A stretch of DNA of 64,000 nt from NCBI RefSeq assembly GCF_000384655.1, contig NZ_ARQI01000127.1, positions 1 to 64,000 of the forward strand. Reading direction: 5' to 3'. The number at the start of each line of letters is the position of its first letter. The first letter of the stretch is position 1. The notes under the pieces are model-generated. The model worked only from the letters and a program-made list of their open reading frames with translations. It ran no database searches and was not told the origin of the DNA. The stretch comes from Brachyspira innocens ATCC 29796. GTDB lineage: Bacteria > Spirochaetota > Brachyspiria > Brachyspirales > Brachyspiraceae. Both the position numbers and the translations under genes were made by a program. Below, piece after piece: positions 14,758 through 37,818 of the stretch.

Positions 14758-17103
14758 ATGATTGATGAAGAAGCTATATATAATTATGATGTCTTTATAA
14801 GCTCTAGAAATACAGATTTAGACAGAAAATGGGCTAATTGGCTTATTAAAGAATTTGAAAATTGGAGTGTGCCTAAAGAATTAATAAAAAAAGGTTTTCA
14901 AAAAAGAATAGGAAGGGTATTTAAAGACAGTGAAGAATCCTCAAAAGATATCAATATAAACATAGAAAAAGCATTAATACATTCAAAATATTTAGTGGTA
15001 ATATGTTCAAAGAATAGTAAAAAATCTGAAAGAATAGAAAATGAAATAAAGATATTTAAAGAATTAGGCCGTTCTGAAAGAATAGTTGCTTTATTAATAG
15101 ACGGAGAGCCTTATGAAGCTTTTCCTGATGAATTAACATTTATAGAAGAAAACGGTACAATAAAAAAAATAGAACCGCTTGCTGCTGATGTAAGAAATAA
15201 AACGGATCAAAAAGAAAAAGAAACTAAAAAAATAGCATTATTAAAAATATTATCATGTATATTGGCCTGTAATTTTGATGATTTAAGACAAAGAGAAAAA
15301 ATAAGAGAAAAGAGAAAATTTAGAAATAAATTTATAATATTATCATGTTTTTTTGCGGCATTATCGTTAGCTGTTATTTTGATATGGGATTATAATAGAT
15401 TAAAAATTACTTACTATAATAATTTTGTATATCAATACGGACTTCCTAAAGGCATAGGAAAATTAAAAAAGTCTATGTATTTAAAAAGAGCTGTTACATA
15501 TATATTTGAAGAGCAAAGGCGTGTTTTAAAGCAGGTAAGGAGAGTTAATAGTTTTGGAAGATTAAGAGATGATGAAAATAATTTTAATATAAGTGTATGG
15601 ATTCCAGAAACTGATGTGTCTGGAAATGTAAAAAGAATAATATGCAAAGATCATAATAATAAAATAGTAATGATTAGAGAATACAGCTCTGATTTAAAAA
15701 TAATAGAGTTTCAAAATGAATTTAATCTTCCATTTGTATCTGACGAAAGTTCTATAGTAAGATATGAGGTAGAATATAATGATAAAGGATATATTACAAA
15801 TGAATTTTTTTATAGGGATTCTTGGAACACATTTGTATCAGATATAGACGGCTTTTACGGAAAAAGATATGAAGTTGATAATAATGGTATGATAATAACA
15901 GAATATGGTATTAATATGGAAGGAGAAACCATCATAAATAGAAACGGTGTATTTAAAATAAAATTCTACTATAACAGACTATACAGTATTATAAAAGAAG
16001 AATTCTTGGATAGTGAAAATAATTTGTTTTATAATATGCATGATGATTACGGATATTCATATATAGAAAAAGAATATGATAAATACGGCAATTTAATAAA
16101 AAAATCATTTTTTGACAATAATCATAATAGGATAATACCTTTAAATAATTTTTATTCTTCTGTATATTATGAATTAGACAGTTTCGGAAATATATCTTGT
16201 GCAAATTATTTGGATTCTAAAGATGAATATATACATTTCTCATACTCAAAATGTTATTTCAAATATGATGAATTAGGCAATAATATATATACATATTTTC
16301 AGAATATGAGCAATCAAAATGCTTATAATACAAATGGTTATTCTATATGTTCTATAAAATATGATAATAATGATAATATAATAGAAAAAACATATTATGA
16401 TGCCAATACAAATATTTCTTTTATAAAAGACGGGTATTCTATAAAAAGAATAGAATATGATAATAATTTTAATAAAAGCTCTGTTTCATACTACGGAAAC
16501 TATACAAATAAGATTTTAAATAATTATAATTATCATAAAAAATTAGTAATGTATAATGATCATAATAGGATTACTAATATTTCATATTATGATATTAGCG
16601 ATAATAAAATAAATGCCTATGTATATAGCCATGAATATTTAGGCTATGAAAGTTATGCTTCTCATTTAATAGAATATGATAAAAAAGGCAACATTATAGA
16701 AAATGCCTATTTAGATGAAAACGGAAATTATAAAAATATATCATCAGGATATGCAATATGCAGATACAGTTATAATGATATAGGACTGCCTGTAGAAGAA
16801 ACTTATTATGACAGTAATGAAAATAAAACATTATATAATAACACAAAAAAATGCTTTTACGGATTTCATAAACTTACACGTGAATATGATAATAATGGTA
16901 ATGTTATAAAAATTTTATTTTATGATGCAGATAATAATTTATGTATGGCAGATGTAAAATATAAATATTCAGCTTTTGACAAAGTAAAATGTGCTGGAAT
17001 TATGTATGAATATGATAACTCTAAAATAACTAAAATTATATATTTGGGAACTAATCAAAAAGCAATAGATGTTACTAAAGGTATATCTATAATAAAATTT
17101 TAA
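14758..17103 (+). CDS. TIR-domain / transmembrane / YD-like-repeat protein (paralog A)
   Basis: The 781-residue protein has an N-terminal TIR domain (about 1-165: YDVFISSRNTDLDRKWANWL, RIGRVFKDSEESS, LVVICSKNSKK). One transmembrane helix follows at about 190-212 (FIILSCFFAALSLAVILIW), then a conserved segment VYQYGLPKGIGKLKK. From about residue 330 it is made of 30-35-residue repeats such as EYDKYGNLIKKSFFDNN and KYDNNDNIIEKTYYDAN, resembling RHS/YD repeats. Where its paralogs have W-V-x-x-E, it reads R-I-E-N-E, so the glutamate is kept but the tryptophan is lost. It stands alone on the plus strand, away from the minus-strand cluster. The TIR domain should be cytoplasmic and the repeats extracytoplasmic; enzymatic activity is uncertain. 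Confidence 0.9.
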   Translation: MIDEEAIYNYDVFISSRNTDLDRKWANWLIKEFENWSVPKELIKKGFQKRIGRVFKDSEESSKDININIEKALIHSKYLVVICSKNSKKSERIENEIKIFKELGRSERIVALLIDGEPYEAFPDELTFIEENGTIKKIEPLAADVRNKTDQKEKETKKIALLKILSCILACNFDDLRQREKIREKRKFRNKFIILSCFFAALSLAVILIWDYNRLKITYYNNFVYQYGLPKGIGKLKKSMYLKRAVTYIFEEQRRVLKQVRRVNSFGRLRDDENNFNISVWIPETDVSGNVKRIICKDHNNKIVMIREYSSDLKIIEFQNEFNLPFVSDESSIVRYEVEYNDKGYITNEFFYRDSWNTFVSDIDGFYGKRYEVDNNGMIITEYGINMEGETIINRNGVFKIKFYYNRLYSIIKEEFLDSENNLFYNMHDDYGYSYIEKEYDKYGNLIKKSFFDNNHNRIIPLNNFYSSVYYELDSFGNISCANYLDSKDEYIHFSYSKCYFKYDELGNNIYTYFQNMSNQNAYNTNGYSICSIKYDNNDNIIEKTYYDANTNISFIKDGYSIKRIEYDNNFNKSSVSYYGNYTNKILNNYNYHKKLVMYNDHNRITNISYYDISDNKINAYVYSHEYLGYESYASHLIEYDKKGNIIENAYLDENGNYKNISSGYAICRYSYNDIGLPVEETYYDSNENKTLYNNTKKCFYGFHKLTREYDNNGNVIKILFYDADNNLCMADVKYKYSAFDKVKCAGIMYEYDNSKITKIIYLGTNQKAIDVTKGISIIKF

Positions 17104-22498: not shown

Positions 22499-25400
22499 CT
22501 ATTTATAAGGATATATTTGATTTCCTTTATCATCGTAATAGTTTGTAGTAGTATTTCCGTATTCATCATAATATATTCTTATGCTGGAATATCCTAAATT
22601 AATCATAGTAGGTTTTCTGTTTGTACCATAATAGAATGCCGCTGTATTTTTATTATCTTCATCATATTCTAAATGCAGTACTGAATAGTTTAATTTTTTT
22701 GAAAGTACAAGATCATTATTTGTACCATGAAGTTCCTGTGTTACCCAATTTACATTTTCATCATAAGTATTTGTCATAATAAAATATCCTTTGCTTCCGA
22801 TAATTGGTTCTTCATTAATACCATAATTTTCAATGGAGCATATATAGTATTTATCATTAAATCTTACTATCTGTTTAAAATAATTTTCATAATTAAGTAT
22901 AGGTTCATTATTTGTACCGAAAGTTTTTGTAACTCTGGTTCTTGTTCCCTCTTTTAGATAGTATGTAATTACATATGCTTTTTTCTGGAAATTGATAGTA
23001 AGTCTATTATTGGTGTTGCAGAAGATATATACTTCATTATTATAATTAGAGCCTTCATATTTTGTATGATAATTCATCTCATCTAATATTATAGGGTTTA
23101 GGTATTTATCGTAATATGAAGTTTTTGTTATGCTTAAATTGCTGATAGTATTATACTTTATAAAATTTGTAACATCAGTGTAATTTAAATAATCATATTT
23201 TACAGTTCCCAAATTATGATATGCATTTATCGGTTCTCCGTTAATTCCGTAATATGATTCTTTAATGAGAATAGAATTTGAATATTCATATTTTATTTTG
23301 GCAGTATTAATATAAATAATTTCCCACATATTATATGTAGCTATATGAGAGCCGTCTATTTTTGATATTATAGGTTTTCCATCTGTGCCGTAAAAAGATT
23401 TTTCTATTATATTGCCTTTAGAATCATATTCATATTTTATTTTCTGCATTCCAGATTGGTATTTATTTGTATTAAAAAATCATATGTATCAGTTATAAGA
23501 ATAGGTTCTTCATTTGTTCCGTAGAAACTTTCATCTATTTTGAGACCTTTATCATTATAGTTTATTTTTCTTACAGCATAATTTTTAGAGTTTAATATAA
23601 GGTTATTGAAATCATCATAATATCTTTCTTCTATAACATTTCCTATTCTGTCATATTTTATTCTCGTATCTGCAAATTTAGAATTAAAGCCATAAAACCC
23701 AAGTACCAATTTATTGCTTGGACCATAATATTTTTTATTTGTAATTTGATTGTATTTGTCATATTTATATTCTGCTAAATGATAATATTCCTCCTGAATA
23801 GTAGGCTTACCATTTGCATCATAATAACTTTCTTCTATTAGATTATAGTTTTTCATCGTATTTTCTTTTATATATAGAGTAATTACTATCACATATTATT
23901 AAATTATCATCTTTATCATAATAGCTTTCTTCTATTAAGTTATCATTATCATCATATTTTCTTCTGTATTTATGGTATATTTCGCCTGTAATATATTTGT
24001 TTGTATTGACATCATAGAATGCACCTTCTATAATATTTCCATTATTATCGTATTTCATTGTATGTATGCAGTATGTGATAAAATTATCAATTATATAGGG
24101 AATCAAAAACAATTTTCCATTTTCATCATAGCTTATTATATTTGTAATATTTCCTTTGCTGTCTGGATTATAAACTATAGAAGCACTTCCAAAATAGTTG
24201 GATAATATGCTTTGTTTATTTTCATTGAAGAAAGATTTTTTTATCAAATTACCATTTTTATCATATTCTTTTTCTATATAAGAGTACCCGTAATTATCTC
24301 CTATATATATTAAGTTATTATTATAATCCAAAAACTCTTCTTTTATTATATTGTATTTACTGTCATAACTTATCTGTAATTTAAATATTCCGTATCTGTT
24401 TTCTTCTATATTTCCGTCTGAGTTTATACCATATTCAGCAGTAACAGCTCCATTATTATCGACTTCATATATTTTTCCGTAGAATCCGTCCTTATTTGCA
24501 ATAGGAGTATTCCATAAATCTCTGTAATAAAGTTCATTAGTTACATATCCGTTTTTATTGTATTCTACTTCATATCTTATTATCTCATTGCCTGATGCAA
24601 TAAAAGGCAGATTAAATTCATTTTTAAACTCTATTATTTTTAAATTAGAACTATACTCTCTAATCATAACTATTCTATTATTATGATCCTTGCATATTAC
24701 TCTTTTTGCTTCTCCGTTTATATCTATATTTGGTATCCATATACTTATATTAAAGTTTTCTATATCATCTCTCAATCTTCCATAACTATTAACTCTTTTT
24801 ACTTGTTTTAATATACCTCTTTTGCTTTCAAATACATAGCTTACATTACGATGCAAATATTGTTTTTTTGTTAATTTTCCAATACCTTTTGGAATGCCGT
24901 ACTGATATACAAAAGTATTATAGTATTCAATTTTTGTTCTGTTATAATCCCATATAAAAAATGATGCAGAAGATAAAATTATAAATAATGATAATAAAGC
25001 AAGTATAATATTTCTGACTCTCTTTTTATATCTCGATTTTTCTATATTCATCAAATAATCAAAACTGCATGACAAAATACAAGATAATATTTTTATTAAT
25101 GCTGTTTGTTTAATTTCTTTATCTTTTTGAAATTTATTATTTCTCACATCAGCATAAAACGGCTCTGTTTCTTTTATAATTCCGTTTTCTTCTATAAAAG
25201 TTAATTCCTTATTAAATGATTTGTTAGGCTCACCATCTATAAGAAGAACTATTATTCTGTCAAATCTTCCAAGTTCTTTAAATATTTTTATTTCACGCTC
25301 TACCCAAACCGACTGTGCTGTATCTTTGGAACATATAACAACTAGATATTTAGAATGTATTAATGCTTTTTCTATACTTTTACTTAGATTAGAGCTTGTA

Positions 25401-25585
25401 GATAATTCTTCTTCATCTCTGAATACTCTTCCTATTCTTTGAGGAAATCCTTTTTTTATTAATTCTTTGGGAGCTCTCCAAGTTTCAAGAGATTCTAATA
25501 ACCATTTAGCCCATTTCTTATCACTACTAAGATGTCTGTAGCTTATAAATACGTCATAATTATAAATTATTTCTCTATCTGTCAT
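22499..25585 (-). pseudogene. TIR / transmembrane / YD-like-repeat protein (paralog B), two frameshifts
   Basis: One gene is split into three frames. The first part (25585 to about 23860) encodes the TIR domain (YDVFISYRHLSSDKKWAKWL, RVFRDEEELS, WVEREI), a transmembrane helix near residue 195 and YD-like repeats. The repeats continue in a second frame (to about 23460) and a third (to 22499), which is again the original frame. Comparison with paralog C places a +1 change in an A5 run near 23860 and a -1 change in a T/A6 run near 23470. Restored, the protein is about 1029 residues. The W-V-x-x-E-I segment is intact. The shifts may be phase variation, decay or sequencing error. The gene follows paralog C by about 66 bases. 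Confidence 0.8.
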
Positions 25586-25651
25586 AATATAAGTAAATAA
25601 AGAATGTTTTAGTTTATCATATATAATTAGTATTGTAGCATAATTGAAAAA

Positions 25652-28600
25652 TTAATCAATAATGCTTATTTCTTTTCCTTTATCATCATAGTAATTAGTA
25701 ACAGCATTTTCTTTACTGTCATAAGTTATTTTATAAGAGGCATATCCCCATATATTCATTATAGGCTTTTCATTAGTTCCATAGTATTTTGCTGATATTT
25801 TTCTGTTATTTTTGTCATATTTATAATCCACTCTGGCATAGTTGTTTTTAAATAACGTTAATTGATTATTAGTACCATATAGTCTGTATGATACAAGATT
25901 ATAATTATCATCATATATACCTTCATACTTAAAATATCCGTTTCTGCCTAATATAGGTTCATTGTTTGTTCCATAGCATTCACTTTCTGCTATATCATAA
26001 TTTCCAAAATATTTTGTAACGAATTTAAAGCAATGATTATTATAAATAACAGGCTCATTATTAGTACCGAATGTCCTTAAAGTTCTTACTTTATAATTAT
26101 TGCTGTCATAATATGTATTTTCTATAGAGTAGGATATATTGCCTTCATTGTTTATAACTAATTCATTGTTAGTGCCGCAATATATATTTATTTCACTGTC
26201 ATTATCTTTTCCTATGTATTTTGCATGATAATTATATTTATTAAGTATAGGTTTTTCATCTTTGTCATAATATGAAGTTTTTATAATATTTTTTATTTTT
26301 ATAGTTTCATCTTTTATTAAATTTGTAATTGCACTGTAATCTGTATATTCATATTTAATCATACCTAAATTACTATAGGCATTTATTGGTTCATTATTTG
26401 TTCCATAATAAGATTCTTTTGTAAGATTAAAATTTGAATATTCATATTTTATTTTGGCTGCATTTATAAACATAGAGTCATGTTCTAATTCTGTTATGAT
26501 TAATTTATCATTTGTATCATAATAGGAAATTTCTATATTATTTCCTAAGTCATCATATTTGTATTTTATTTTATGATATGTGTAATCATCTTTACCTATA
26601 TAATATGACTGCTTAAAAAAAAGAACTGCTTCATTATTTGTTCCGTAATATCTTTCTTCTGTTTTTAGTCCTATTTCATTGTATTCGATTTTTTTTAGTG
26701 CGTATTTATTATTATTGAGAATAAGTTTTCCATTTTGATCATTATAACTTTCTTCTATAATATTCCCTCTTTTATCGTAATTTATTTTTATTTCATATCC
26801 TTCATTACCGTATTTATTTAGTACTACTAATTTTCCGTCAATATCAAAATATCTTTTTTCTATAAGATTATTATAATCATCATATTCATATTCTATTTTA
26901 TGGTAATTATCATTCCTATATACAGTAGGTTCATTATTAGTGTTATAATAGCTTTCTTCTACGAGGTTATAATTAGAGTCATATTTCATCTTTAAAATAG
27001 AGTATTTGTTAAAGCAGTTTACCAAATTATTATCTTTATCATAATAACTTTTTTCAATTATGTTATTATTGTCATCATATATCATTTTGTATTTACTTGA
27101 ACTTATAGGAGAAACATATTCATCATTGCTTAAATTATAAAAAGAAGTTTCTATAATATTTCCTCTATTATCATATGACATACTGCAGGTATGATATTGT
27201 ATTTGGTCATAATTTATATCTAAAAATAGTTTTTTCTTTTCATCATAATTTATTATATTTGTTGTATTTCCCCTATTGTCTATGTTGTAAACTATACATG
27301 AAGGTTTATCATTATCTTTTAATATTCTTTGTTTATTTTCATTGAAGTATGATTTTTTTATTAGGTTTCCGTTTATGTCATAATCTCTTATTATATAAGA
27401 ATATCCGTAATCATATCCAGCTATATAAATTAAATTATCATTTTTATCAACAAATTCTTCTTTTATAAGATTATAACTATCATCATATGTGTATTTTATT
27501 TTATATATTCCTTCTTTATTAGGAATAATATTTCCGTTGGAATTAATTCCGTATTCCGCTGTAATAACTCCGCTTTCATCAACCTCGTATTGTTTGCCGT
27601 AAAAACCATTCTTGTCTGATATCGGAGTATTCCATGAATCCTTATAATAAAGTTCATTTGTTATATAACCATTTTCATTATATTCTGCTTTGTATCTTAC
27701 GGTAGAATTTCCATTAAATATGAATGGAAAATTAAATTCATTTTGGAATGTAATTATTTTTAAATCTGAACTGTATTCTTTAATCATTACTATTTTATTA
27801 TTATGGTCTTTGCATATTATTCTTTTTATATTTCCTTTTGAATCTATTTCTGGTATCCATATACTTATATTATAATTTTTATCTAATATACCGTAACTGT
27901 TTACTCTTTTTACACGTTTTAAAATACCTTTTTGATGTTCAAAGATATATGTACTTGCCCTTTGATGATATTGTTTTTTTGTTAATTTTCCTATTCCTTT
28001 AGGCACCCCATACTGATATACAAAATCATTATAATATGACAATTTTACTTTATTATGTTTCCATATGAGTACTATAGAAAATATGATAATAATAAGAATG
28101 CATAACAATATAGTTATTTTATTTATTAATATTATTTTTTCTCTTATTTTTTCTTTTTCAATTAGGTCTTCAAAATCGCATGCCAAAACACATGATAATA
28201 TCTGGATCAATGCTTTTTGTTTTGTCTCTTTTTTATTTTCTTTATCTCTTACATCAGCAATTATCGGGTTTAATGGGATTTTTTTATCAGTATCTATATA
28301 TCTTAATTCTTCGCTTATAGATTCTTTACCGTCTATAAGCATAACGATTATTCTATCAGAGCGTCCTAATTCTTTGAATATTTTTATTTCAGCTTCTACC
28401 CACTTAGATTTTGATGTTTCTTTCGAGCAAATAACTACTAAATATTTTGACTGAATTAATGCTTTTTCTATGCTTTTAGTTAGATTAGAGCTTGAGGATA
28501 ATTCTTCTTCATCTCTGAATACTCTTCCTATTCTTTCAGGGAAGCCTTTTTTTACTAGTTCTTTAGGTACTTTCCAAGTTTCAAGAGATTCTAAAAGCCA

Positions 28601-28675
28601 CTTTGCCCATTCATCATCAAGATGTCTATAGCTTATGAATACATCATAATTATAAATTACTTCTTTGTTTATCAT
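25652..28675 (-). CDS. TIR / transmembrane / YD-like-repeat protein (paralog C)
   Basis: This intact 1007-residue protein starts with a TIR domain (YDVFISYRHLDDEWAKWL, RIGRVFRDEEELSSSSNL, LVVICSKETSKSKWVEAEI). The W-V-x-x-E-I segment matches the part of SARM1-type TIR NADases that holds the catalytic glutamate. A single transmembrane helix (about 178-197) is followed by the conserved VYQYGVPKGIGKLTKKQYHQR segment. About 650 residues of YD-like repeats follow (for example KYDDYNNLIEKRYFDIDGK), and many repeats contain YYGTNNEP. The TIR part should be cytoplasmic and the repeats outside. It starts 25 bases after the sigma factor gene's stop, so it is in the same operon. NAD cleavage is predicted, not shown. 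Confidence 0.92.
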   Translation of the reverse strand: MINKEVIYNYDVFISYRHLDDEWAKWLLESLETWKVPKELVKKGFPERIGRVFRDEEELSSSSNLTKSIEKALIQSKYLVVICSKETSKSKWVEAEIKIFKELGRSDRIIVMLIDGKESISEELRYIDTDKKIPLNPIIADVRDKENKKETKQKALIQILSCVLACDFEDLIEKEKIREKIILINKITILLCILIIIIFSIVLIWKHNKVKLSYYNDFVYQYGVPKGIGKLTKKQYHQRASTYIFEHQKGILKRVKRVNSYGILDKNYNISIWIPEIDSKGNIKRIICKDHNNKIVMIKEYSSDLKIITFQNEFNFPFIFNGNSTVRYKAEYNENGYITNELYYKDSWNTPISDKNGFYGKQYEVDESGVITAEYGINSNGNIIPNKEGIYKIKYTYDDSYNLIKEEFVDKNDNLIYIAGYDYGYSYIIRDYDINGNLIKKSYFNENKQRILKDNDKPSCIVYNIDNRGNTTNIINYDEKKKLFLDINYDQIQYHTCSMSYDNRGNIIETSFYNLSNDEYVSPISSSKYKMIYDDNNNIIEKSYYDKDNNLVNCFNKYSILKMKYDSNYNLVEESYYNTNNEPTVYRNDNYHKIEYEYDDYNNLIEKRYFDIDGKLVVLNKYGNEGYEIKINYDKRGNIIEESYNDQNGKLILNNNKYALKKIEYNEIGLKTEERYYGTNNEAVLFFKQSYYIGKDDYTYHKIKYKYDDLGNNIEISYYDTNDKLIITELEHDSMFINAAKIKYEYSNFNLTKESYYGTNNEPINAYSNLGMIKYEYTDYSAITNLIKDETIKIKNIIKTSYYDKDEKPILNKYNYHAKYIGKDNDSEINIYCGTNNELVINNEGNISYSIENTYYDSNNYKVRTLRTFGTNNEPVIYNNHCFKFVTKYFGNYDIAESECYGTNNEPILGRNGYFKYEGIYDDNYNLVSYRLYGTNNQLTLFKNNYARVDYKYDKNNRKISAKYYGTNEKPIMNIWGYASYKITYDSKENAVTNYYDDKGKEISIID

Positions 28676-28700
28676 GTTATTATACCAAGATATCTTATTT

Positions 28701-29345
28701 TTATATATTTTTATTAGTAAGTTTTTTTATGCAGTCTTTTATTTTATTATTATATGCTGATTTTATTTTATCTAAAATATGACCTGATATATTATATTTT
28801 GTTTTTATGTCTTTTTGTTTTAAGTCTTTATGAAGAAAAGAGAAAACATACTCTTTGTATATAATAAAACTATCCTCTATTAATTGTGATTTTTTATTTT
28901 TTACCTCTATAAGATTTGAGAGTCTTTGATCGCACATATTACATTCTTGGCATATAGTATCCATACTTTGTTTTGTAATGGCTTCAAGAAATAGAAATAG
29001 TCCCTCTTTGTACTCTTGGTATAAATCATTTATTTCATCATCGGGTATTACTAAATTAAGAAGCTCATCATTCAATCCCTGCAGTTTGTATTTTTTCTTC
29101 ATTTTACTTTTTTTCTTTCTAATATAATCTATTACCCTAGAGTTGATCATTATGTATATATATCCGTCTATTAGTTCATAGCCTTCTTTTTCAAAACCGT
29201 TTCCTATTTTGTTTAACAATTCCACATAAATTTCCTGCATAATATCTTTAGCGTCTTCATAGTTGCCTATTTTTGAATACACTCTGCTGATATAGTTTTT
29301 ATAATTTCTGTCAATGGAATCGATTAAGTCAATTATTTCCCACAT
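28701..29345 (-). CDS. Sigma-70-family (ECF-like) RNA polymerase sigma factor
   Basis: The 214-residue protein has sigma region 2 near its N-terminus: YEDAKDIMQEIYVELLNKI, then YIYIMINSRVIDYIRKKKSK, the core-binding and -10 recognition helices. A C-terminal helix-turn-helix-like segment (LKQKDIKTKYNISGHILDKI) could be region 4. The middle contains an unusual CQECNMCDQR cysteine cluster. The start lies two bases after the stop of the SLOG/TrkA/RyR gene, and the TIR paralog C gene follows within 25 bases, so it is embedded in the TIR operon. It probably drives expression of this operon or repeats elsewhere. No anti-sigma factor is recognisable, but the membrane RyR protein could take that role. 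Confidence 0.78.
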   Translation of the reverse strand: MWEIIDLIDSIDRNYKNYISRVYSKIGNYEDAKDIMQEIYVELLNKIGNGFEKEGYELIDGYIYIMINSRVIDYIRKKKSKMKKKYKLQGLNDELLNLVIPDDEINDLYQEYKEGLFLFLEAITKQSMDTICQECNMCDQRLSNLIEVKNKKSQLIEDSFIIYKEYVFSFLHKDLKQKDIKTKYNISGHILDKIKSAYNNKIKDCIKKLTNKNI

Positions 29346-29347
29346 AA

Positions 29348-31837
29348 TTAATAACTTTTACCTATTTTGTATTTTATAAAAGAACCTAACTCTCTGTTAT
29401 TAAGAAGAAGGTATCTCATTTTATCAATCAGTTCATAATTAAGAATAAAACTTCCTGATAAACTTCTGTTTTTTGTATTGTTATCCTCCAAAATATAATG
29501 TTCATTCACAAACTCTCTATCTTTAGTATCTAAATTTTTTATAATCATTTCATATTCATCATTATTGATTGTTATAGGTATATCTATAAGCCCCATAGAA
29601 TCTTTATATAATTCTTCATCGGATAGCTCTTCAAATGGTACTAATAGATTGTGAAGTCTCATATGTGATTTAATAAATGATAAAGTTTCTTTAGGATAAT
29701 CAGAGCCTATGCTGTCAAAACCTGATAATATTTTTGATACATACCATCTTTTATGTTCTAGTCTGGCTAGTAAATCTATATTTTTTATATCTTTCAAATT
29801 TGCATGTTTTCTTTTATCATTAAAATCCAATATTGATAATCCCAAATAATCAAGTTTTATAGCTAAAAATCTTGCTGCATATCTGTTATCATTTTTTTCG
29901 CCTTCTGATATATTATTCCAAGCTCCGTTATTATTGGCAGTAGGCATTTTGCAGTATTCAGAGTATATTTTTTGTGCTATAGTATCCAAATCATTATACT
30001 GAAGTGAATAATCTATAGATGAAAGATAGTTTATAGATGGGAAAATTTCTATTCCTATTTTATAGTATTTATTGTAGAGGTCTGGATTAGTTTCTAATAT
30101 ATTTGTAGCTGAATCTAAAAATACAAATATTTTAGGTTCATCTTTGATAGATAGATTTTTAAATAGTATTTGTCTTGTTTCAATAGCCCAATTTAATGAG
30201 TTTTCTTCATTATCTGCATAAATTAAACAGGAAGATAATCTGCTAAGCAGAGAAGCTATATTATCAGGTATTTCATTGTTAATAAAAGACGGATAATCCA
30301 AAAAATGAAGCGATGCAATTCTGCTTAATTCTGGAAGCTTATTTATAAGTACATTATTATAAAACTCCTGATTTTTATCTACAAATATGAGATTAATATT
30401 ACTCTCTTTTCCTACAACAAGAAGAATAAGCTCTCTTATTACATCTATAACATTATCATTAATTCCAAATATAAGTATTATAGGGGCATTCCCTTCATTG
30501 ATGTTAATATTTCGTATTACAGAGTATTTTGAAATTTTATCAATAAAGAAACGTATAGCATTCTTTTTAAATGATGAAAAACGTACATAAACTGGGTCTT
30601 TACTGTATGAGACTGGAAGTATTTTTTCATAATTTTTATATTTATTATTATCTTCTATATCTACTACTAATTCTATAGTATGATTTATTTTATATGTTCT
30701 TATTATTTTAGAAGCTATATTCATAGTTTCTATATTTTTATCATCATATTCAGAAATACAAAATATTTCACTGCATTTTAATATTCCAGCATTAAATAGG
30801 GTAGAAGCCTGAGTATAATCTCCTTTAAGTTTTATTACATTTTTATTGAAAATATCTTTTGTATTAACTTCATCTTCATTGCATATAAGCACAATTTTTT
30901 TATCTTTGGACATTCCATTTAATACGCATAATGATTTAACATTACAGCCGCATATAATAGTATGTTTTTTAAAAAATATTGATATAACAGTTCTAGTTAT
31001 TAAATCAGAAAAAAGATTTTTTATAACTTGAAATAAAGCACCTGCTAATGTTATAGGGGCAAGAAATCTTACTAAGTTTAATAGGGGAGGCAACTCTTCC
31101 ATATCAAAACTAGCTTCTAATTGAAATATCTGCAAAGTTTTATAAAATGCTGTGAATATGCTTATATTTTCTCCGTATTCTTTTAAACAAAACTCTTTCC
31201 AAGCAAAAATTCCAAGTACAGATACAAAAAGAAAGGATAAAACCCAAGCTACAGTCATACTTAAATATGATGCTTTTTTAGGGATCTTTTCTCCTATTAC
31301 TTTTGAGCATTTATCGCTGTTAATATTATTTAAAATATAATCTTCTATTTCATTTATATCTTTATTTAAATCTATGCTTAATGTGAAAGGAGTATTATAA
31401 TAATTTTGAAATGATAGTACAGGTATATTATAATCTTTTTTAGTATTATTTTTTATATAGCTGTTTATATTTACATTATTGTCACATATAAATAGAGATA
31501 TATCTGTTTTATGCGATATTAATGATATTAATTGCTGATTAGAAATGTCTTCATTAATAATGAAACTTGAATTTGCTCTTTTTAATATATATTCTATATC
31601 TTCATTATTTTTATTTATAATATTTTGTGTTATTATTTCTATAACTATTTGATATTCAGCAGCCAATTTAGCCATTGCAATTTCTAAATCTGTATATAAA
31701 GTTGTATGCAATTTTATTAATCTTTTAGGATATATTCTTCTTAGATGATTAATCATAAAAGATAAACTTTCAAGTGCTTTTGTTTTATTTGTACTTTTTT
31801 GTAAATCCGAAATATATATAGTTATAGGGTGATTCAT
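29348..31837 (-). CDS. SLOG-like / transmembrane / TrkA-N / RyR-domain protein
   Basis: An 829-residue multidomain protein. Residues about 1-175 look like a Rossmann-type SLOG-family domain (TLYTDLEIAMAKLAAEYQIV at the place of the usual LA-GAD segment). Two or three membrane segments follow (about 190-215 and 255-280), with FYKTLQIFQLEASFD between them. A TrkA-N nucleotide-binding domain begins at TIICGCNVKSLCVLNGM (about 292), and a second Rossmann-like unit at APIILIFGINDNVIDVI (about 445). The C-terminal part holds a bacterial RyR domain: LLARLEHKRWYVSKILSGF, then RLHNLLVPFEELSDEELYKD. Such domains are linked with nucleotide-signal sensing in conflict systems. The sigma gene starts two bases after its stop. 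It probably senses a nucleotide at the membrane. Confidence 0.82.
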   Translation of the reverse strand: MNHPITIYISDLQKSTNKTKALESLSFMINHLRRIYPKRLIKLHTTLYTDLEIAMAKLAAEYQIVIEIITQNIINKNNEDIEYILKRANSSFIINEDISNQQLISLISHKTDISLFICDNNVNINSYIKNNTKKDYNIPVLSFQNYYNTPFTLSIDLNKDINEIEDYILNNINSDKCSKVIGEKIPKKASYLSMTVAWVLSFLFVSVLGIFAWKEFCLKEYGENISIFTAFYKTLQIFQLEASFDMEELPPLLNLVRFLAPITLAGALFQVIKNLFSDLITRTVISIFFKKHTIICGCNVKSLCVLNGMSKDKKIVLICNEDEVNTKDIFNKNVIKLKGDYTQASTLFNAGILKCSEIFCISEYDDKNIETMNIASKIIRTYKINHTIELVVDIEDNNKYKNYEKILPVSYSKDPVYVRFSSFKKNAIRFFIDKISKYSVIRNININEGNAPIILIFGINDNVIDVIRELILLVVGKESNINLIFVDKNQEFYNNVLINKLPELSRIASLHFLDYPSFINNEIPDNIASLLSRLSSCLIYADNEENSLNWAIETRQILFKNLSIKDEPKIFVFLDSATNILETNPDLYNKYYKIGIEIFPSINYLSSIDYSLQYNDLDTIAQKIYSEYCKMPTANNNGAWNNISEGEKNDNRYAARFLAIKLDYLGLSILDFNDKRKHANLKDIKNIDLLARLEHKRWYVSKILSGFDSIGSDYPKETLSFIKSHMRLHNLLVPFEELSDEELYKDSMGLIDIPITINNDEYEMIIKNLDTKDREFVNEHYILEDNNTKNRSLSGSFILNYELIDKMRYLLLNNRELGSFIKYKIGKSY

Positions 31838-31928
31838 AAATAACCTTTATTTGTAATTTTTTAAAAATAATTTAATCTTATAAATGAAAATATATTTTAT
31901 ATAGTACATATATAAATACGTAATTTTT

Positions 31929-32540
31929 TTAAGAAGTATACTTTTTTATTAAAAAAATTTTATTTTTTTCATAAAAAATATTTTCATAGTTATAATTTGA
32001 AAATAAAGAACGATTAAATGTACATAATTTTATTTTTTCCTTGTTTTTCAAGTTTATTATTAATAAATCTGATATAATATTTTCGATATTTTCTGTATTT
32101 CCAGTGATATATACTTTAGAATCATCAAAAGTTAGATATGCAGGTAAGTTGCTATCAACATAGTTTAATTTTATAGTTCTTTCATTAGAATAATTTTTAC
32201 TAAATCCTACAACTTTATTATCATCTTCATCATATTCCTCATATTCTTCATGTAATATAAAATTATGATTGGGTATTGAAAAACATATGATATCTTTTAT
32301 TTCTAAATATTTATCAAGGTAATCATGTGTGATATTCTTTATAATGGAACATTTTTCATCAAGGAATGATTTACTATCATTACTATTTGAAGAATCTATT
32401 ATTATTTTATCGAACATAGTTAAATTTTTCTTTGTCATATTTTTTTGTTTAAAAATATCTGTAAAATATTCCATTATTATTTCCTCTAATTTTTTTTTAT
32501 TGTCTCCAGTTTTTTTATTATCTCCCATAACCTCTTCCAT
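31929..32540 (-). CDS. Unknown protein, first gene of TIR operon
   Basis: The 203-residue protein (199 if the second ATG at 32528 is used, which has GGAAGAGG just before it) is not recognised. It is charged, has no signal or transmembrane helix, begins with a Lys/Asn-rich segment, and its second half looks beta-rich (RTIKLNYVDSNLPAYLTFDD, KVYITGNTENIENII). It precedes the SLOG/RyR gene by about 90 bases on the same strand. It may be a cytoplasmic partner of that system. No known family is claimed. Confidence 0.65.
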   Translation of the reverse strand: MEEVMGDNKKTGDNKKKLEEIIMEYFTDIFKQKNMTKKNLTMFDKIIIDSSNSNDSKSFLDEKCSIIKNITHDYLDKYLEIKDIICFSIPNHNFILHEEYEEYDEDDNKVVGFSKNYSNERTIKLNYVDSNLPAYLTFDDSKVYITGNTENIENIISDLLIINLKNKEKIKLCTFNRSLFSNYNYENIFYEKNKIFLIKKYTS

Positions 32541-37104: not shown

Positions 37105-37818
37105 TTAGTTTAAAAAATCTGGAGGGTATTTTTTTACTCTTTCCTTGAATAAAAACTCTATTAGTTTTCTAGTACGTGTCAATAAAAAATATGACCATAA
37201 CTCTATAGAGCTTTGTCCTATTGTATAAGTATTTATTTCATCAACTGGTATTTGTATAGTCTTGGTGGTATTGTAGCTTAAATTTATTTTTAATTCTGCT
37301 TCATAATATTGACCATTTATATTAAATTGAGGAAGCATGTCATGAACTACGCAGTTTCTTACAGATTGAAGTGTTTTAGCCAAATTATATTCATTTTTTG
37401 GAAGCATTCTGTAATTATTAACTATAGATATCAGCATTCCTATATTGCATTGTGCCAAGTCTTCTATATTTGTTATTTTTTCTTCATACTTCTTTCCATT
37501 ATTAAATTTCTGTATAGAAATAAATCCATTTTCTTCTATTTTTTCTTCTAAAAGGATCATAAGTGATTGTTCAAACATACTTCCAACAAGTGTGCAGCTT
37601 GCTTCAAAGTATCCGAAATAATAATTTTGATGAACTTGATAAAGAAGTTTAAGCATATGTTCAATTCTTTTGTTATTTATCTGACCTACATGCATTCTCT
37701 GATATTTCAGAGCTTTTCTTCTAAGTTCTGCTTTTTCCAAAAAATCATCATTGTATCTTTCTTTTAGGCTTAATTTAGGCTGTTTTATTTTTTTATTTTC
37801 ATTTGTATTATCGCTCAT
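37105..37818 (-). CDS. Unknown helical protein with HEPN-like R-x4-H motif
   Basis: The 237-residue protein is cytoplasmic and mostly helical. One segment (FGYFEASCTLVGSMFEQSLM, about 68-87) resembles helix 1 of HEPN-related proteins. Further on, SVRNCVVHDML (about 158-168) contains R-x4-H as in HEPN ribonucleases. No catalytic partner gene sits nearby: it is convergent with the PRTase gene, seven bases away. I recognise no named family. HEPN-type RNase or a structural HEPN are the readings I find most plausible, but this is a motif-level guess. Confidence 0.6.
   Translation of the reverse strand: MSDNTNENKKIKQPKLSLKERYNDDFLEKAELRRKALKYQRMHVGQINNKRIEHMLKLLYQVHQNYYFGYFEASCTLVGSMFEQSLMILLEEKIEENGFISIQKFNNGKKYEEKITNIEDLAQCNIGMLISIVNNYRMLPKNEYNLAKTLQSVRNCVVHDMLPQFNINGQYYEAELKINLSYNTTKTIQIPVDEINTYTIGQSSIELWSYFLLTRTRKLIEFLFKERVKKYPPDFLN

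Follow-up and report, generated by a model that had tools for sequence, protein, structure and literature searches.

Described systems closest to the locus

In Thoeris, a TIR gene lies beside a gene for a protein able to bind the ADPR signals made by TIRs; the ThsB TIR is accompanied by a ThsA effector of SIR2-SLOG or Macro-TM architecture, and further types have been described. SPARTA contains Argonaute and a TIR-APAZ protein, and its TIRs kill by NAD depletion. RyR and TrkA-N domains were reportedly found by Burroughs and co-workers in 2015 in nucleotide-centred operons, in conflict systems with SLOG domains, and TIR-based signalling systems are said, going by the title, to have been systematically catalogued by Yirmiya and co-workers in a bioRxiv preprint of December 2025. 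A literature search found no prior description of a TIR gene paired with a RyR-domain channel; these last two works may overlap with such a pair.

RyR domains of the R12 type also occur in phages, as stand-alone anti-defence proteins. According to a preprint of May 2026, these either bind the Thoeris TIR signals 2'/3'cADPR at nanomolar Kd, as sponges, or cleave them by hydrolysis (PMC13232231). In RyDEP, cADPR is contacted by His75, Trp78, His100 and Asp117, with H75 and D117 forming the catalytic dyad, whereas the eight further phage homologues put to the same test, although highly conserved, did not cleave the signals (PMC13232231).

The locus described here, from Brachyspira innocens ATCC 29796, resembles several of these systems in part. 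As in Thoeris, a TIR gene adjoins a gene whose product may, by analogy, bind TIR-made signals. Unlike in Thoeris, the partner is a protein with two transmembrane (TM) helices, tandem RCK units and a RyR domain, in which searches with Pfam, PDB profiles and hhalign found no match to SIR2, SLOG or Macro; the TIR forms one protein with a TM helix and a large domain of repeats, and an ECF-type sigma factor is added. The TIR model matches the TIR fold of SPARTA TIR-APAZ, but the cluster is without Argonaute or APAZ. The combination of RyR with TrkA-N is reportedly also that of the 2015 conflict systems. Overall, the cluster gives the impression of a cell-defence system based on TIR that has so far gone undescribed, a variant of TIR signalling rather than a new category.

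Gene content and conservation within the genus

The window, the whole stretch of 64,000 nucleotides that was analysed, lies on contig C127 of a 3.28 Mb genome. A check of its open reading frames gave a row of five genes on the minus strand at 22499-32540, which runs from ORF1 through the genes for a membrane protein and a sigma factor to two TIR-TM-repeat genes:

31929-32540, minus strand: ORF1, first gene of the cluster, 203 aa
29348-31837, minus strand: channel-like membrane protein, 829 aa
29558-29920, minus strand: RyR domain of the membrane protein, residues about 640-760
28701-29345, minus strand: sigma-70/ECF-type sigma factor with Sigma70_r2, 214 aa
25652-28675, minus strand: TIR copy C, 1007 aa, with TIR, TM helix and YD/RHS-like repeats
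23843-25585, minus strand: N-terminal part of TIR copy B, 580 aa, with TIR, TM helix and first repeats
22499-23892, minus strand: rest of the repeat half of TIR copy B, at 23437-23892 in one further frame and at 22499-23449 in another

The order and strand that had been read from the letters alone were reproduced, as were the gaps of two bases between the RyR and sigma genes (29346-29347) and 25 bases between the sigma gene and TIR copy C (28676-28700). The fifth gene, TIR copy B, is broken in two places, and its coding sequence runs through three frames. Its homologues in two other genomes of the genus (G014 and G022) are intact, and it could be either a pseudogene or a draft-assembly error. 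ORF1, for which no known family had been claimed, indeed had no Pfam or NCBIfam match. PADLOC, whose models cover neither the membrane protein nor the sigma factor, gave only weak TIR matches, and membership of a PADLOC system was not retained.

Two neighbouring genes of the window are of separate note. A solo TIR-TM-repeat paralogue of 781 aa, with its repeats cut short, lies on the plus strand about 5 kb from the cluster (14758-17103); its repeats are 63% identical to those of the second TIR copy of G022, against about 41% to those of copy C. A 237-aa protein encoded near pheT on the minus strand (37105-37818) has no Pfam family above cut-off and a weak HEPN_Swt1 match.

The sequence-only reading was to be refuted if the genes co-occurred in no other genome; they do co-occur, the cluster being syntenic in four genomes of the genus. 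In these four of the 26 genus genomes (G000, G014, G015 and G022, of which G015 carries long runs of N), the cluster lies between subtilase/GAF genes and pheS. Two more genomes, G002 and G020, have kept ORF1 and the sigma gene, with the RyR gene mostly deleted and TIR absent, bringing the cluster to six of 26 genomes, eroded in two of the six. ORF1 is kept in five of the six sigma-bearing genomes, the sixth (G015) having masked bases there, and was not found in the remaining genomes of the 26. The RyR gene has a dN/dS of 0.05-0.14, and sigma and RyR genes together gave 0.04-0.14 in most comparisons, the cluster being syntenic in four genomes. The conservation of the cluster exceeds chance. The RyR gene of G014 contains one in-frame stop; together with the broken TIR copy B of the window, this implies that selection for the system is not uniform.

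The TIR-TM-repeat proteins

Both TIR genes were matched by TIR_2 of Pfam (8e-14 and 6e-13), and a ThsB_TIR match (1.2e-11) places the TIR among those of the ThsB kind. In copy C, the TIR domain spans residues about 9-165 and is followed by one TM helix at about 183-205 and by YD/RHS-like repeats to the C-terminus. Its putative catalytic residue is E96, within WVEAEI; the glutamate at this position of the WVxxEI motif is presumably equivalent to the catalytic glutamate of SARM1. The predicted structure consists of a TIR domain, one long membrane helix and about 20 two-strand beta-hairpin repeats. In a Foldseek search, the repeats matched RHS/YD proteins best (RhsA, E 3.8e-23) at TM-scores of 0.1-0.2, which reflects local similarity to an RHS-type beta strip and not a closed cocoon. 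The earlier assignment of both last genes as TIR-TM-YD-like proteins thus stands for the domains, and for copy B with the reservation that its frame is broken.

In G022, the two TIR copies share 98% identity over the TIR part (dS 0.09) and about 40% over the repeats (dS 1.0). Near-identity of the one and divergence of the other are what would be expected of a common signalling head kept alike by gene conversion and of sensor ends that vary.

The channel-like membrane protein

The second protein of the cluster had been read as a SLOG-like domain, membrane helices, two nucleotide-binding Rossmann units and a RyR domain. Its parts were assigned as follows:

residues 1-185: unassigned N-terminus, where the model is unreliable
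residues about 187-221 and 251-275: two TM helices, separated by a short helix (AlphaFold)
residues about 290-445: first RCK/TrkA-N unit (Pfam and model)
residues about 450-600: second Rossmann unit (model)
residues about 640-755: RyR domain (family profile and model)

Pfam gave a TrkA_N match of 1.4e-5. Structure prediction, which had been proposed as a check, returned the following arrangement in an AlphaFold model built with 17 sequences: two TM helices with a helix between them, Rossmann/RCK units in tandem and, at the C-terminus, a helical region, just as the model of the TIR protein returned repeats behind the TIR. The pLDDT was about 65-85 in the TM helices and mostly below 50 in the N-terminal 185 residues. 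The SLOG part of the reading was not supported, no match having been found there by Pfam, PDB profile or hhalign, in a region where the model is poor; the membrane helices and TrkA-N/Rossmann units were retained, as was the RyR domain through its family profile.

The best PDB match of the model in Foldseek was GsuK (E 1.4e-7, with a low overall TM-score), followed soon after by the gating ring of CASTOR. GsuK is a tandem-RCK channel whose structures have been solved with NAD and with ADP. The order of two TM helices followed by tandem RCK units is common to the window protein and the RCK-gated channels GsuK, MthK, CASTOR and POLLUX, and the predicted pore helices and tandem RCK agree with the architecture of RCK-gated K+ channels. 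Unlike these channels, the window protein is without a TxGYG-type filter and has an added RyR domain and N-terminal domain. A motif search found no TxG[YF]G selectivity filter anywhere in the membrane protein, and any conduction by it is therefore putative.

RyR domain and putative ligand residues

The TrkA-N, sigma-70 region 2 and TIR profiles predicted by the sequence-only reading were found directly, whereas the RyR domain was recovered just through its family profile. Pfam found no direct PF02026 match in the window sequence, and that direct assignment was dropped. Three relatives from the spirochaete phylum, found by family-profile search, match PF02026 at 1.3e-4 to 8.6e-3, and in a further relative (L118) RyR (3.8e-11) and TrkA_N (6e-11) are both matched by Pfam in one protein. 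A profile of six channel-fused RyR domains, including that of the window and leaving out members with strong Pfam matches, found its closest PDB counterparts in ryanodine receptors (E 6.7e-7, then 0.0015). RyR membership is thus established at the profile level, through relatives and the family profile and not by the single sequence.

Residues H695, W698, H729 and D746 of the window protein match H75, W78, H100 and D117 of RyDEP in kind, so that the R12-type set of His, Trp, His and Asp contact residues is common to the window and to RyDEP and the phage sponges. The spacings of three residues from His to Trp and of 17 from the second His to Asp are identical in the two, by position and not by alignment of the RyDEP sequence itself, and the loop from Trp698 to His729 is longer in the window protein. 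H695, W698 and D746 are invariant in a 17-row alignment of channels and in a 13-row alignment with canonical RyR domains. Whereas the phage proteins stand alone and counter defence, the window RyR domain is built into a bacterial membrane protein encoded beside a TIR gene.

TIR genes beside RyR channels outside the genus

A profile search of genome contigs gave 28 loci, mainly from Bacteroidales. When the class Bacteroidia was searched across 295 genomes, three more RyR-bearing loci were added, together with twelve channel relatives that lack RyR, CASTOR/POLLUX-like and other, which were kept as a control. A TIR gene was found within 3 kb at 18 of 33 RyR-bearing channel loci and at none of the 12 RyR-less relatives of the same sample (Fisher p = 6e-4, ignoring relatedness). 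Of the 21 RyR-channel loci flanked on each side by 2.5 kb or more, 13 have such a neighbour, as do 9 of the 20 sequence clusters of RyR channels; TIR genes are scarce, each of 12 of these genomes having just 0-3. Some of the loci scored with the TIR, solo-RyR and sigma profiles had also served to train them, and the TIR calls therefore rely on Pfam wherever it was consulted. TIR thus recurs beside RyR channels in other phyla. The arrangement varies, with the TIR gene upstream or downstream and on the same or opposite strand, and the intergenic distance is 7-33 bp at some pairs (L064, L089, L118 and L122).

The second halves of the partner TIR proteins also vary. They are WD40-like propellers at L064 (Spirochaetales) and L118 and Sel1 repeats at L089, and at L122 a TIR-DUF4062 protein neighbours an nSTAND1 ATPase. 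The closest approach to the window set is a run in Prevotellaceae (L070) of an ECF-like sigma factor, TPR, RCK channel, solo RyR (3.5e-33) and TIR; the sigma calls at L070 (Pfam 0.008) and L088 (Pfam 0.09) are weak.

Some loci are worth recording in their own right. At L122 (5139-11220), the RyR-family channel, TIR-DUF4062 and nSTAND1 ATPase form one run, possibly a version with a STAND-type sensor. At L061 (6065-9826), the RyR channel lies beside a TPR-S, SLOG-like, guanylate-cyclase protein, possibly a cyclic-nucleotide version. A stand-alone RyR protein of about 100 aa is encoded beside the channel gene at L078, L079, L082-L084, L070, L073 and L108, all from Bacteroidales; it resembles the RyR proteins of phages and may serve as a brake or a subunit. 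RyR-domain genes were also found on Arcobacter and Methylobacterium plasmids (L123 and L124).

How might the system work?

The proposal of a nucleotide-centred system is supported, in that the locus combines TIR with repeat domains and with a membrane protein that carries TrkA-N and RyR. We lean, by a modest measure, towards a TIR-signalling module for defence or cell suicide, Thoeris-like and with an ion-channel-like effector. The repeat half of the TIR-TM-repeat protein, probably outside the membrane, would act as the sensor and recognise a variable ligand, for example a phage or envelope signal. The activated cytosolic TIR would convert NAD into a cyclic-ADPR-type molecule, which on the simplest view would be the ligand bound by the RyR domain of the neighbouring 2TM-RCK-RCK-RyR protein; the signal-bound RyR domain would then open or deregulate a membrane pore, and growth would stop. 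ORF1 and the sigma factor would be an add-on regulatory pair. Several observations weigh against such a module, among them the missing K+ filter motif, the weakness of the PADLOC matches and the broken state of one RyR gene (G014) and one TIR copy (window). In addition, about half of the RyR-channel loci are without TIR within 3 kb, some of them on short contigs, which leaves room for other partners such as the cyclase at L061 and the PrsW neighbour of the RyR channel at L062; and the window locus sits among housekeeping genes, with no evident defence island.

The order of events proposed here reverses that of the earlier account, in which the membrane protein sensed and the TIR proteins acted as effectors. 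That assignment is disfavoured by the phage-type cADPR-binding residues of the RyR domain (PMC13232231), which make the membrane protein more likely a receiver and effector and the TIR-repeat protein a sensor and signal maker. If the membrane protein instead sensed a nucleotide or ionic signal, its RyR domain sensing and not receiving the TIR product, and activated TIR killing by NAD depletion, this would fit the common binding of nucleotides, NAD or ions by RCK domains, the GsuK match, the resemblance of SPARTA TIRs to the window TIR model, and the membrane anchoring of the TIR proteins, which could act locally. Such a scheme is unlikely, as it leaves unexplained why the neighbour has a domain that binds TIR products (PMC13232231) and why each TIR carries a large, variable repeat or propeller domain.

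Alternatively, the RyR domain could hydrolyse or sequester the TIR signal as RyDEP does, guarding against accidental activation, with the RCK units doing something else. H695 and D746 are counterparts of the RyDEP dyad, and Bacteroidales loci encode, beside the pair, a further RyR protein that stands alone and has about 100 aa. This role is quite unlikely, given that cleavage was confined to RyDEP among the phage homologues tested (PMC13232231) and that fusion to a 2TM-RCK body in relatives favours gating over a soluble brake.

If the preferred reading, in which repeats sense, TIR signals and the RyR channel responds, is correct, TIR signalling would gain a further class of effector, a RyR-gated membrane protein, in at least Spirochaetota and Bacteroidota. 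Bacterial RyR domains would gain a job, phage RyR-domain proteins that mop up cADPR would be explained, and the long-standing question of a direct action of cADPR on RyR-type domains could be tested in a two-gene bacterial operon. A bolder and at present doubtful extension is a widespread and not yet described bacterial immune class, with cyclic ADP-ribose as the messenger between a TIR enzyme and a RyR-domain channel, as a counterpart, possibly the source, of the animal control of RyR by cADPR.

Sigma factor and ORF1

The third protein was called sigma-70-like from the letters alone, and Sigma70_r2 (PF04542) matches it at 8e-7, above the Pfam cut-off. A TIGR02937 match (1.5e-7) is below that family's cut-off, and no Pfam profile of region 4 matched the protein; a match to PF20285 (CTD9) was discarded as below cut-off. 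After region 2 it carries the motif C132-x2-C135-x2-C138, invariant in six of six orthologues and a possible metal or redox site.

That the sigma factor drives the operon is weakened by its dN/dS, 0.04-0.19 in genus comparisons, being 0.06 between G002 and G020, where RyR is mostly deleted and TIR absent. If these losses predate the split of the two genomes, this purifying selection implies a role of the sigma factor without RyR and TIR, and it suggests that ORF1 and sigma have a separate function as a pair. An autoregulated promoter was considered and rejected: just one short block, rich in A and T, is common to the upstream regions, and shuffled sequences gave no fewer promoter-like sites.

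The chromosomal position next to pheS, the vertical conservation of the cluster across four genomes and the ECF type and persistence of the sigma factor with ORF1 could all suit a phage-unrelated housekeeping or envelope-stress unit of an atypical K+ or osmotic channel, ECF sigma and surface-sensing TIR, yet this is very unlikely in view of the patchy and partly eroded distribution in the genus, the TIR pairing in distant phyla, the variable repeats, and the mobile, defence-like context of the plasmid relatives, which adjoin type I restriction, SIR2, integrase, recombinase and transposase genes. ORF1 and the sigma gene persist without an intact RyR gene and without TIR at 8906-10643 of L046 and at 9031-10455 of L047.
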